Program-made: the position numbers and the translations under genes
Notes under the pieces: model-generated
What the model was told of the DNA's origin: nothing
Database searches by the model: none
What the model saw: the letters and a program-made list of their open reading frames with translations, nothing else
In this document: positions 1,932-6,123 of the stretch, piece by piece
Numbering within the stretch: the first letter of the stretch is position 1
Layout of the letters: each line of letters begins with the position of its first letter
From: Leptolyngbya sp. FACHB-321
Lineage (GTDB): Bacteria > Cyanobacteriota > Cyanobacteriia > Leptolyngbyales > Leptolyngbyaceae
Reading direction: 5' to 3'
Assembly: GCF_014695975.1 (NCBI RefSeq)
Contig: NZ_JACJPI010000042.1
Span: 62,001 to 126,000 of the forward strand
Length of the DNA: 64,000 nucleotides

Positions 1932-2477
1932 TTAACTAATCGTTTGATAAAAGGTAAGGGCTGTGTTGCCATACACTTTTTGACGGCATATTTCTAAGAT
2001 GGAAGGTGTGAGAACGCTGAAGCGATAAGGGCTGTGTTCTACTGCTAATTCACCGTTCGGTGCTAGTAATTGAAGGTGCGCGATCGACTCAATAACTGGT
2101 TCATACAAATCACTGTGGTAGGGCGGATCAAAGTAAATACGATCAAACTGCTGACCCTCTAATGACTTGATGCGCTGCCTGACATCACCCCGCAGCACTT
2201 GAAATGTTTGCGTATCCTTCGCCACTTGCTGCCAGTTTTGCCGAATGATAGCGTTAGCGCGAGTGGATAGCTCAATGCCCACAACCACTGCTGCACCGCG
2301 ACAAAGCGCTTCTGCACCCATTGCACCACTGCCTGCACACAAATCGAGCCAGCGACAGCCCGCGATCGTGCCCTGCCAGATATTGAACAATGCCGATCGC
2401 ACCATTGCTAAGGTGGGTCGCGTCTCTTGTCCTGGCAGGGTCTTAAGCTGACGATTGCCGTAAATTCTCAAGCTCAT
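1932..2477 (-). CDS. rsmD: 16S rRNA (guanine(966)-N(2))-methyltransferase RsmD
   Basis: RsmD methylates N2 of G966 in 16S rRNA during 30S assembly, using S-adenosylmethionine. The 181-residue protein has the SAM-binding motif I LDLCAGSGAMG at residues 44-54 and the N6/N2-methyltransferase catalytic motif DPPY at 117-120. Its length matches the family. It lies directly downstream of hisH with a one-base overlap, so the two are probably cotranscribed even though their pathways are unrelated. The stop lies 74 bases from the convergent mntB gene. Confidence 0.92.
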   Translation of the reverse strand: MSLRIYGNRQLKTLPGQETRPTLAMVRSALFNIWQGTIAGCRWLDLCAGSGAMGAEALCRGAAVVVGIELSTRANAIIRQNWQQVAKDTQTFQVLRGDVRQRIKSLEGQQFDRIYFDPPYHSDLYEPVIESIAHLQLLAPNGELAVEHSPYRFSVLTPSILEICRQKVYGNTALTFYQTIS

Positions 2478-3121
2478 TAGGATGCCGTCACAACCTGCCT
2501 TGCCTGTACCAAATTAACGAAATTTGCCAAAATCTGTAGACCAGCAGTCGAAGATTTTTCAGGGTGAAATTGAACTGCCATGAGATTATTTTGGGCGATC
2601 GCGGCTGTCACTGTTTGACTGCCGTGTGTAATCGTTGCTGCACGCGCTTTTGGATCACTGGGATCGACGTAGTACGAGTGCACAAAATAGACCCACGGAT
2701 CTATAGGAAGGTCTTGCCAGAGTGGAGAATTGGGTTGTGCTAACTCCAATTGATTCCAACCCATGTGAGGAACTGTAATGCCGGGTTCGTGGCGAAAGCG
2801 TTTGACGGTACCGGCAACGATGCCTAAACCAGGTTCTTTCCCTTCTTCACTCGCCTCAAACAAAATTTGCAGCCCTAAGCAAATGCCTAGAAACGGTTTG
2901 CCACTAGCGATCGCCCGTTTGATCGGCGCTTCTAACTGGCGTGAACGCAAATGTTGTACGGCTGGGTCAAACGAGCCAACACCGGGCAGTACGATCGCCT
3001 CTGCCTGATCCAGAGCAGCAGGAGAATCGGTAATGATGGGAGTTGCGCCTGCTTTTTCTAGCCCCTTACAGGCAGAATGCAGGTTGCCCATGTCGTAGTC
3101 CACCACTGCGATCGTTGGCAT
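2477..3121 (-). CDS. hisH: Imidazole glycerol phosphate synthase subunit HisH
   Basis: Glutaminase subunit of IGP synthase in histidine synthesis; it releases ammonia from glutamine and channels it to HisF. This is a class I glutamine amidotransferase of 214 residues with the nucleophile Cys81 in GICLGLQ and the catalytic pair His186 and Glu188 in FHPEKS. The oxyanion loop PGVGSF lies at 46-51. It overlaps rsmD by one base. The hisF partner is not in the window; hisC is about 0.5 kb away on the same strand, separated by a small gene on the other strand. Confidence 0.95.
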   Translation of the reverse strand: MPTIAVVDYDMGNLHSACKGLEKAGATPIITDSPAALDQAEAIVLPGVGSFDPAVQHLRSRQLEAPIKRAIASGKPFLGICLGLQILFEASEEGKEPGLGIVAGTVKRFRHEPGITVPHMGWNQLELAQPNSPLWQDLPIDPWVYFVHSYYVDPSDPKARAATITHGSQTVTAAIAQNNLMAVQFHPEKSSTAGLQILANFVNLVQARQVVTAS

Positions 3122-3635: not shown

Positions 3636-4709
3636 CTACACCAAATGGATTAGCGCTTCCACCAACACCTGGTTTTGCTCGTCCGTGCCAACGGTAATCC
3701 GCAACTTGTCGCTTAAACCAGCTTGATGGAAGTAGCGCACTAAAATACCGCGCTCTTTAAGTGCTAAATAGATTTGTTCAGCATTGCTTTGGGGCGGCTG
3801 TACCAGCAAAAAGTTAGCTTGCGAATCCCACAGGCGGAAGCCCAATTGCTTAAGCGCAATCGCCAGCGCTGCCCGCGAAGTTTTGACTTTGGCAGCACAC
3901 TCATTTTTGTACGCCTGATCGCGCATAGCAGCAGCACCTACTAACCCCGCGATCGCATCAATGTTGTAGCTGTCTTTAACTTTAAACAAGCCACTCAACA
4001 GCGTTGGATTAGCGATGCCAAAACCGAGTCGTAGCCCTGCTAGTGAGTACCCTTTAGATAACGTGCGCGTTACGATCACATGATCAAATTCATGCACCAG
4101 CGGCAATGCAGTTTCTTCGGCAAAGTCAACATATGCCTCATCAACCACCAGAACACCCGTAAGCCCTGCCGCTAGTTGGCGTAGTTCAGCGATCGACACC
4201 ACATGACCAGAGGGGCTGTTGGGCGACGCAATAAAGGTAACGGCACCATTCGCAGCAATGAGTTCCGCGATCGGCAAGCGATAGTCGTCTCCGTAGGGAA
4301 TCTCGATCGTGTCCGCTGGCTGCATTGCAGTTAAGGTGCGATACAGCACATAAGTCGGTACCGGATAAACTACTTTACGCTCAGTTTCAGCGCACGCACG
4401 AATGATGATATTCAAGATATCGTCACTGCCGTTGCCCACAATAATCCAGTCCATCGGCACGCCGAGCGCTTCACTGATCGCCTGCCGAAACTCATTGGCG
4501 TAGGGATCAGGATACCGTCGCAGCGACTCAGCCTTAAGCGTTTGCAACGCTGCGATCGCTGCTGGGGAGGGCGGATAAGGATTCTCGTTGGTATTTAGTT
4601 TAATGATGGGTGTGTCAGACTTTGGCTGCTCACCTGGCACATAGCCAGTCATCGCATCAATGGCGGGGCGGAAGTAGGTAGTCACGGCTCTAGGGATAGG
4701 TTCAGGCAA
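3636..4709 (-). CDS. hisC: Histidinol-phosphate aminotransferase HisC
   Basis: PLP-dependent class I/II aminotransferase that converts imidazole acetol phosphate to histidinol phosphate. The 357-residue length is standard. Key features are the substrate arm NTNENPYPPSP (39-49), the cofactor phosphate site GNGSDD (92-97), ASPNSPSG at 161-168 and the Schiff-base lysine Lys219 in RTLSKGYSLAGLRLG. It is probably a single-gene transcript. Broad-specificity HisC-type enzymes can also act on aromatic keto acids; the neighbouring hisH supports the histidine assignment. Confidence 0.94.
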   Translation of the reverse strand: MPEPIPRAVTTYFRPAIDAMTGYVPGEQPKSDTPIIKLNTNENPYPPSPAAIAALQTLKAESLRRYPDPYANEFRQAISEALGVPMDWIIVGNGSDDILNIIIRACAETERKVVYPVPTYVLYRTLTAMQPADTIEIPYGDDYRLPIAELIAANGAVTFIASPNSPSGHVVSIAELRQLAAGLTGVLVVDEAYVDFAEETALPLVHEFDHVIVTRTLSKGYSLAGLRLGFGIANPTLLSGLFKVKDSYNIDAIAGLVGAAAMRDQAYKNECAAKVKTSRAALAIALKQLGFRLWDSQANFLLVQPPQSNAEQIYLALKERGILVRYFHQAGLSDKLRITVGTDEQNQVLVEALIHLV

Positions 4710-4763: not shown

Positions 4764-4874
4764 TCACTGCGAGAGAAACCCTGTTACCAGCAGCGGCACA
4801 AGAATAAGCGCAGCCACGATCGCAAGTAGCGTTCCGGGATCAATCTTGACAATGTTCTCGTTTGGATCGCGCAT
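4764..4874 (-). CDS. Candidate 36-aa single-pass membrane protein
   Basis: Reading the minus strand from the ATG at 4874 gives a 36-residue peptide starting MRDPNENIVKIDPGT, followed by one hydrophobic helix (LLAIVAALILVPLLVTGF) and a stop at 4764. An AAGG sequence lies five bases before the ATG. Charged N terminus plus one helix is the layout of small thylakoid or plasma-membrane subunits, but I do not recognise it as any known photosystem, cytochrome b6f or NDH subunit. It lies 54 bases upstream of hisC on the same strand and could share its transcript. Function is unknown. Confidence 0.5.
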   Translation of the reverse strand: MRDPNENIVKIDPGTLLAIVAALILVPLLVTGFLSQ

Positions 4875-4975
4875 TGAACCTTACTCGTCAGTATGTGAAC
4901 TTAGTTTAGTGGACTTAAGTTTAGAAGATCATAACTCTTTGCTCAAAGCCTGCTGTTTGCCCAAAGCTCCTAGAC

Positions 4976-5055
4976 AAACAGCAAAAAGCCCCTGAACGTC
5001 TTGCCGTGTTTCGACTTCAGGGGCTTTCTGTATTCGATTCGTACTCCTCACACAC
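4976..5055 (-). repeat. Hairpin repeat copy 1 (possible small RNA)
   Basis: The first of three near-identical units. A 12-bp stem (4985-4996 with 5016-5027), then one bulged base and three more pairs, encloses a 12-base loop. Read on the minus strand the stem is followed by TTTTTG, as in a factor-independent terminator, and is preceded by a conserved 25-base leader (rc of 5031-5055). The spacer to copy 2 is only about 60 bases. The unit could encode a small RNA of roughly 70 nt on the minus strand. Confidence 0.7.
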
Positions 5056-5114
5056 TTGCGAATATACCACAGATTTCTTCCTTGCGGTAGTCTTTTGCAG
5101 CACGATCACTTCAA

Positions 5115-5196
5115 ACAAGCAGCAAAAAGCCCCTGAACGTCTTGCCGTGTTTCGACTTCAGGGGCTTTCTGTATTCGATTCGTACTCCTCACACAT
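5115..5196 (-). repeat. Hairpin repeat copy 2 (possible small RNA)
   Basis: This copy matches copy 1 almost base for base: stem 5126-5137 with 5157-5168, the same 12-base loop and the same leader. Downstream on the plus strand (upstream for a minus-strand RNA) 5197-5330 is homologous to 5435-5570 next to copy 3, so the duplicated unit is about 240 bases. The block at 5203-5250, including ataatctcgcta and gtgacagatgttga, is almost unchanged between copies and is the best candidate promoter region. Confidence 0.7.
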
Positions 5197-5355
5197 CTAT
5201 AATCTCGCTACCAATCTACGCTTGCTATATCTCATGTGACAGATGTTGAGATGGGCAAGTGTGAATTACGTGTGTAAAGCAGACGACAGCACAATTAGAG
5301 CAAGGATTACAGCACTGACAACCAAAAAGTATTGTGACAATCCAACGATTTAGGC

Positions 5356-5436
5356 AAGCAACAAAAAGCCCCTGAGCGTCTTGCCGTGTTTCGACTTCAG
5401 GGGCTTTCTGTATTCGATTCGTACTCCTCACATATT
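5356..5436 (-). repeat. Hairpin repeat copy 3 (possible small RNA)
   Basis: This is the third copy, with stem 5365-5376 and 5396-5407. It has one substitution in the stem (position 5376), which changes an A-U pair to G-U if read on the plus strand or to A-C on the minus strand. Leader and loop are otherwise conserved. The upstream homologous block is 5435-5570. Three copies with a conserved hairpin and conserved flank argue for selection rather than a chance terminator. Confidence 0.7.
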
Positions 5437-5637
5437 CATAATCTCGCTACTAGCCTACGTTTGCTATACCTCTTGTGACAGATGTTGAAGTGGACAAGGG
5501 GGGATGAGCCCTGTGGAGCAGGCAACAGCACCGTTATGACAAGAGTTACAGGTCTCACAAGAGCAGATAGTGCAACGATTCGACGGCACCTCAACGGAAG
5601 CGCTATTGTTTAGAGCAGTGGACTCTAGACGATCGTC

Positions 5638-6123
5638 ATGAACAAACCGTTGGATGCAGAGCAGTCGATAGCGCTGTCTACTAGCATCAAAAGCAAAGCC
5701 AAAGCACCGTTTGACAATGCCTACCGTGCTGCACTGGCAACAAAAGGCGCAATCTACGTACAGGGATTTGTAGCCGTGTCCGGGCAGCCACACAAGCCGA
5801 TCGAGCACAGTTGGCTGGAACTGGAGGATTGCATCGTTGACCCGTCGCTGCCGCACTTTAACCGCCCCGCTACCGCACTCCACTACTTTCCTGCTCAACG
5901 CCTCACGGTGAAACAGTTGAAAGCCGCGATCGAAGAAGCGAAGGAAGACTATCCCGACGACGATCCACTACCAATCTATGGCAAGGCTCCCTACGAATAC
6001 TATGGCGATTTGATGCTGGGCGGCAAAGAGTATCTCGCAGCCCACAACGCCGCGATCGCCCAATGTCAGTCGCTAAACCAGCCAAAATCGACCTCTAATG
6101 GACACATCAGTGATGAGGGCTGA
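5638..6123 (+). CDS. Conserved cyanobacterial hypothetical protein, 161 aa
   Basis: I do not recognise a named family. The 161-residue soluble protein has a central segment IEHSWLELEDCIVDPSLPHF (residues 55-74); the H-W and D-P spacing recalls transglutaminase/papain-like folds, where such His and Asp residues are catalytic, but this is only a resemblance. It ends in a low-complexity polar tail. It is a lone plus-strand gene; the hairpin repeat locus lies directly upstream, and purK follows on the other strand. Confidence 0.7.
   Translation: MNKPLDAEQSIALSTSIKSKAKAPFDNAYRAALATKGAIYVQGFVAVSGQPHKPIEHSWLELEDCIVDPSLPHFNRPATALHYFPAQRLTVKQLKAAIEEAKEDYPDDDPLPIYGKAPYEYYGDLMLGGKEYLAAHNAAIAQCQSLNQPKSTSNGHISDEG

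Follow-up and report, generated by a model that had tools for sequence, protein, structure and literature searches.

Yfr2 is one of the two almost universal cyanobacterial small RNAs (sRNAs) and interacts with Yfr1 (PMC6778093). The family is characterised by the Cyano-1 motif (PMC8400943), and its RNAs were described as carrying a 12-nt central loop on a long stem interrupted at position -4, with a conserved 5′ stretch that was predicted to be unpaired (PMC2662882). The interaction with Yfr1 was reported in Prochlorococcus and, by gel shifts, in Nostoc, and sequestration of Yfr1 was proposed (PMC6778093, PMC6974561). Prochlorococcus Yfr2 is reported to be induced under high light and in late nitrogen starvation, and Yfr2 genes are described as present in multiple copies at unconserved loci (PMC6778093). 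For Nostoc, "four repeats" are mentioned, and the available portion of that paper leaves unstated whether they are tandem (PMC6974561).

In a 64-kb stretch of Leptolyngbya DNA (the whole stretch that was analysed, here called the window), three units on the minus strand are copies of this known family. They resemble Yfr2 in matching the family model, in having a conserved 5′ leader, a long interrupted stem capped by a 12-nt loop and a terminator-like 3′ end, in occurring as several copies per genome and in their computed pairing with Yfr1. They differ from the family as described in that three copies share one intergenic space and the site is conserved in the genus. NsiR1 is likewise an sRNA encoded in tandem repeats, but no Rfam family other than Cyano-1 exceeded its threshold here. 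In Prochlorococcus MED4 (Yfr10-Yfr2), a yfr2-type gene also adjoins another sRNA gene, but the neighbour there has the Yfr1 motif, whereas the neighbours here are further Yfr2 units (PMC2518516). Our literature search, which included the available portions of PMC6974561, PMC2518516, PMC4734099 and PMC8400943, returned no description of tandem yfr2 genes; the family paper of Gierga et al. 2009 was outside its scope. The distinctive point here is that one yfr2 gene seems to have been multiplied into a row of three. Our preferred reading, with a probability of about 0.92, is that these are tandem yfr2 genes derived from local duplication, each predicted to give a minus-strand RNA that possibly titrates Yfr1, which would give a higher or re-tuned Yfr2 dosage.

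Identity and fold of the three units

Each unit is matched over 78 nt of the minus strand by the Rfam model RF01701 (Cyano-1), the gathering score of which is 41 bits (Table 1). Copy 1 has the highest score of the three, and copy 3 exceeds the gathering score by 1.9 bits. Copy 1 scored 84.2 bits with our own model R1, which was partly built from copy 1. Cyano-1 was the sole family reaching its gathering score in the Rfam scan of the window; in the 941-base stretch, four other kinds of weaker Rfam matches were far below their own gathering scores. The preliminary description had seen no match to a known sRNA, which was wrong, since all three units exceed the gathering score of the published Yfr2/Cyano-1 family. 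Its proposal of a tandem small-RNA family on the minus strand is supported by the RF01701 match of all three units, the conserved leader and the covarying hairpin; the Rfam covariance-model search that it had suggested was run, and Cyano-1 was matched in every unit.

Table 1. Features of the Yfr2 locus and its neighbours (window coordinates)
Feature	Position	Strand	Remarks
Yfr2/Cyano-1 unit, copy 1	4980..5057	-	RF01701 48.8 bits; nearest to hisC
Yfr2/Cyano-1 unit, copy 2	5121..5198	-	RF01701 47.2 bits
Yfr2/Cyano-1 unit, copy 3	5360..5437	-	RF01701 42.9 bits
12-nt loop GAAACACGGCAA, copy 1	5001..5012	-	sequence and fold
12-nt loop, copy 2	5142..5153	-	sequence and fold
12-nt loop, copy 3	5381..5392	-	sequence and fold
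5′ leader GUGUGUGAGGAGUAC, copy 1	5041..5055	-	complementary to ACUCCUCACAC in Yfr1
5′ leader, copy 2	5182..5196	-	complementary to ACUCCUCACAC in Yfr1
5′ leader, copy 3	5421..5435	-	complementary to ACUCCUCACAC in Yfr1
Conserved upstream element, copy 2	5233..5254	-	1 mismatch to CCANYTNNANATCTGTCACAAG; CTGTCA starts 50 nt before GTGAGGAG
Conserved upstream element, copy 3	5472..5493	-	0 mismatches to CCANYTNNANATCTGTCACAAG; CTGTCA starts 50 nt before GTGAGGAG
-10-like TATATT, copy 1	5061..5066	-	by eye; TGG precedes
-10-like GATTAT, copy 2	5199..5204	-	by eye
-10-like GATTAT, copy 3	5438..5443	-	by eye
hisC-like aminotransferase	3636..4709	-	PF00155, 1.7e-54; downstream of units, same strand
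Class-I glutamine amidotransferase gene, read as hisH	2477..3121		PF00117
161-aa conserved gene	5638..6123	+	divergent; other side of units from hisC

A repeat comparison placed 81-nt copies at 4974-5054, 5115-5195 and 5354-5434, with the second 99% and the third 94% identical to the first. Folding of the minus strand gave each copy a long stem of 15+3 pairs with an interruption, followed by a TTTTT end; the stem of copy 1 has five pairs more. The folding z-scores of copies 1 to 3 were -3.94, -4.16 and -4.07, and 1, 0 and 0 of 200 shuffles folded as well. The three near-identical minus-strand hairpins of the preliminary description were thus borne out, as were the fixed 12-base loop and the TTTTT end in each copy, and its 12-bp stem was too short. 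An upstream block of ~130 bases, said to be common to copies 2 and 3, was also recovered: these copies share 206 nt at 83% identity (5116-5321 and 5355-5560), and their likeness runs roughly 125 nt past the unit.

The arrangement of a 12-nt loop, three pairs, an interruption and then at least 15 pairs is a Yfr2-type stem. The interruption was also present in the consensus of an alignment of 35 units (A1), made up of six units from this genome and the 29 best-scoring units of relatives, with weaker units of relatives left out. The conserved 5′ stretch of Yfr2 (GUGUGAGGAG) is present as GTGAGGAG in all three units; this leader is unpaired both in the 35-unit consensus and in copy 3's centroid structure, and is partly in weak pairs in the minimum-energy fold of each copy. 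A generic terminator scan, which takes loops of 3-8 nt only, found none at the locus, where the loop is 12 nt. The flanks and the copies differ from one another, so it is unlikely that the assembler wrote one stretch three times.

Neighbourhood and origin of the triplet

The gene downstream of the units is called hisC here because of its PF00155 match and because the neighbouring gene is read as hisH. The literature search found no paper joining hisC with Yfr2, its copies and promoter. The 161-aa protein encoded on the other side matched no Pfam or NCBIfam family and has relatives at 42 cyanobacterial loci (43 loci minus L109 of Clostridia). Within flanks of up to 3 kb, shorter at contig ends, Yfr2 units were found at 7 of the 42, which are those of six congeners and of a Kastovskya (L098).

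Six genomes of the same genus each have one high-scoring unit at this site, where three are present here; the congener assemblies are drafts of about 40 to 700 contigs, in which a tandem copy may be collapsed. The unit adjoins the 161-aa gene in 6/6 congener stretches and hisC in five; hisC was not found in the stretch of G006. A weak match on the strand opposite the G006 unit (23.1 bits, E 0.021) is the hairpin read backwards and was not counted as a further unit. Two genomes of other genera have kept one of the neighbours, G010 having hisC and G019 the 161-aa gene. Identity among the three window units is 94-97%, and with the remaining units of the 35-unit alignment it is no higher than 86%. 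With 22 of its 32 inner branches open, the tree of units resolves the order of duplication poorly. The window units may form one local clade, for which the tree is too weak as proof, and gene conversion is possible. From these comparisons, the triplet would most simply be a lineage-specific local expansion of one yfr2 gene.

Between the Yfr2 units and hisC, the minus strand encodes a small protein of 36 aa (window 4764-4874) that has a single hydrophobic stretch. Five of the six congeners have kept it at the corresponding position, with 67-77% identity over 30-36 residues; it matched no Pfam family, and its NCBIfam Sec61beta match was sub-threshold (14 bits, cut-off 55).

DNA upstream of the units

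The upstream region most like those of the congeners' single copies is that of copy 3, which aligned with five of the six congeners above all 300 shuffles (for G001, 19 of 300 shuffles were as high). The region upstream of copy 2 scored above all 300 shuffles for G004 only, with 9 to 51 of 300 shuffles as high for the other five congeners. Scores of the copy 1 upstream region against copies 2 and 3 were not used and are partly an artefact, because the 160 nt upstream of copy 1 take in copy 2 together with some of the DNA upstream of it.

In copies 2 and 3, the distance from the start of the hexamer CTGTCA to GTGAGGAG is exactly 50 nt, as it is in five of the six congeners; at the same position, G001 has CCGTCACAG, with CCGTCA instead of CTGTCA. 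The element came to notice in the congeners, before the count over all 35 units was made. Because the genomes share ancestry, the following counts overstate the support. In 21 of the 35 units, the best match to CTGTCACAA at -56 to -46 covered 7 or more of the 9 positions (shuffles: mean 0.538, maximum 4). Of the 12 units from the genus, 8 reached this level (shuffle mean 0.14, maximum 2), as did 13 of the 23 from other genera (shuffle mean 0.33, maximum 2). In six control windows of the same width, the count for each group was 0 in five and 1 in the sixth. At 7 of 9, the match was not reached by copy 1, by the three other units of this genome or by 10 of the 23 units from other genera. When the 21 sites were aligned, a second conserved half, CCA.TT, appeared 12 to 7 nt before the first. 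The element is thus bipartite, CCA.TT....ATCTGTCACAAG, and is located about 50 nt ahead of the yfr2 leader in several genera. When one mismatch at most was allowed, a search of this genome for the full pattern hit copies 2 and 3 and no other place; when up to three were allowed, it hit 11 sites, versus 5 with the reversed pattern as control. That the position stays constant from genus to genus points to a regulator, of which the element is perhaps the binding site.

The HLR1 consensus of RpaB, KTTACAWW-N2-KTTACAWW (PMC13421787), was compared as a candidate identity of the element. At the N2 spacing, the best matches in copies 2 and 3 were 10 and 11 of 16, and over the 35 upstream regions the mean best match was 10.00 versus 9.38 in shuffles (0/200 as high). 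The resemblance to HLR1 is thus weak and falls short of a good site, and HLR1/RpaB was not taken as the identity of the element. At Prochlorococcus yfr2 promoters, a GntR regulator binds the motif CGRE1 (PMC6778093). Among the 10 papers listed of 2,095 partial matches, our search found none in which the CTGTCAC element and Yfr2 occur together (the CGRE1 paper was outside its scope), and the portions of the literature covered name no yfr2 regulator of non-marine cyanobacteria. As a tentative extension, which we hold at clearly less than even odds, the locus may be two-tiered: copies 2 and 3 would be controlled by a dedicated regulator through CCA.TT....ATCTGTCACAAG, copy 1 would give Yfr2 independently of it, and in non-marine cyanobacteria a yfr2 regulator would bind this element.

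The upstream sequence makes it plausible that each unit is transcribed separately. The -10-like hexamers in Table 1 were picked by eye; a sigma-70 promoter scan at the locus found no full site (0 versus 1.0 in shuffles). A variant compatible with the preferred reading is that one or two units are active and that the rest, chiefly copy 1, are decaying or are transcribed by read-through. The absence from copy 1 of the upstream element common to copies 2 and 3 and the congeners speaks for this variant, but copy 1 outscores the other two in Rfam, its leader and loop are intact, and its TATATT is spaced 8 nt from TGTGAGG, the same spacing as that of TATTAT in G004. We regard the variant as possible but doubtful.

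Conservation, distribution and computed pairing with Yfr1

Each unit closes in a G+C-rich stem followed by TTTTT, and the hairpin may well terminate transcription; the units also lie upstream of hisC on its own strand. They might therefore be tandem intrinsic terminators and nothing else, for example stopping a transcript before hisC. However, a terminator can do without an invariant loop and a conserved leader, whereas the loop sequence GAAACA.GG is invariant in 35/35 aligned units and GTGAGGAG is at least 90% conserved in each column. Units are also present at other loci of the same genome, and terminators alone are a very improbable explanation.

The RNAalifold consensus of the 35 units has 17 pairs, 16 of them with two-sided changes. 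In this structure, 98.0% of 590 cells are paired versus 79.7% in shuffles, and 96 cells have two-sided changes compared with a shuffled mean of 20.5 and with 14-25 in slid versions, a control that favours the consensus structure since it was derived from the same alignment. None of 500 shuffles was as high on any of five measures. In L005, L026 and L032, much of the stem is replaced and the pairing is kept. The covariation supports the hairpin. Sequence conservation is concentrated in the leader and the loop, in agreement with the published description of Yfr2 (PMC2662882).

RF01701 matches were found in 54 of the 58 genomes searched, this genome among them. The model R1, built from A1, was used on 42 genomes of the family, and a search of related genomes for the same hairpin, which the preliminary description had proposed, thus found units in 42/42: at least six here and at least 1 to 4 in each of the other 41. 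These counts come from the best-scored part of the first-look candidates in each genome (for this one, the best 150 of 633 in one search and the best 150 of 1259 in another) and may be low. The earlier text had named a dispersed palindrome lacking the leader as the result that would contradict it; instead, all six copies found in the 6.7 Mb of this genome have the GTGAGGAG leader. A dispersed repeat or mobile palindrome that landed three times by chance, to which the near-identity of the units and the two copies in a seemingly duplicated segment (L003 and L006) would be congenial, is extremely improbable in view of the copy number of at least six in 6.7 Mb, the use of the same site by the congeners, the strong compensatory change in the stem and the low number of units, one to four found per genome, across the other 41 members of the family.

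Three further units of this genome were located outside the window, on contigs C64, C54 and C7. Those on C64 (L003) and C7 (L006) are both flanked by a methyltransferase-like gene on one side and a DUF5131 gene on the other, and the DNA upstream is also similar in the two. Pfam covered one flanking gene per locus; the pair looks like a segmental duplication. Tandem arrangement of Yfr2 units is rare among the genomes searched: besides this genome, one other of the 42 has units less than 300 nt apart (G016, 299 nt from start to start). The two G016 units (L049, 3083-3152 and 3382-3451) have equal scores, and the genome belongs to a different genus of the same family.

One Yfr1 was found in this genome (RF01116, 58.8 bits). 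A pattern search for the Yfr1 motif followed by a T-run found none, whereas the Rfam model found it. The gene adjoins a thioredoxin gene, which is also the published neighbourhood of yfr1 (PMC6778093). The unpaired ACTCCTCACAC of Yfr1 is complementary to the unit leaders, and cofolding with Yfr1 gave gains of -21.3, -17.9 and -17.2 kcal/mol for copies 1 to 3 through the leaders. Shuffled Yfr1 gave means of -10.2, -7.5 and -8.4 kcal/mol, with 0/200 as good for each copy. In duplexfold, which takes no account of intramolecular structure, the best Yfr1 duplexes of copies 1 and 2 run mostly via the hairpin arms and not the leader.

In the preferred reading of tandem yfr2 genes, an ancestral single yfr2 gene between hisC and the 161-aa gene would have been locally duplicated to three units. 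Each unit would give a minus-strand RNA of ~75-80 nt that ends at its own hairpin and U-run. The leader GUGUGAGGAGU is computed to pair with ACUCCUCACAC of Yfr1, and Yfr1 could thereby be drawn off its mRNA targets; the loop GAAACA.GG would be a second contact, a mechanism taken from the published Prochlorococcus and Nostoc work. Copies 2 and 3, with the upstream element, would likely keep the ancestral control, and copy 1 would be under different control or be a read-through product. The probable outcome of the triplication would be a Yfr2 dosage that is higher or re-tuned relative to Yfr1.

Apart from the triplication and the upstream element, the finding is an ordinary one, as the sRNA family is well known. 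The local triplication, with one copy devoid of the upstream element, is a natural experiment in dosage and promoter, and the putative element offers a concrete sequence for seeking a yfr2 regulator outside the marine picocyanobacteria.
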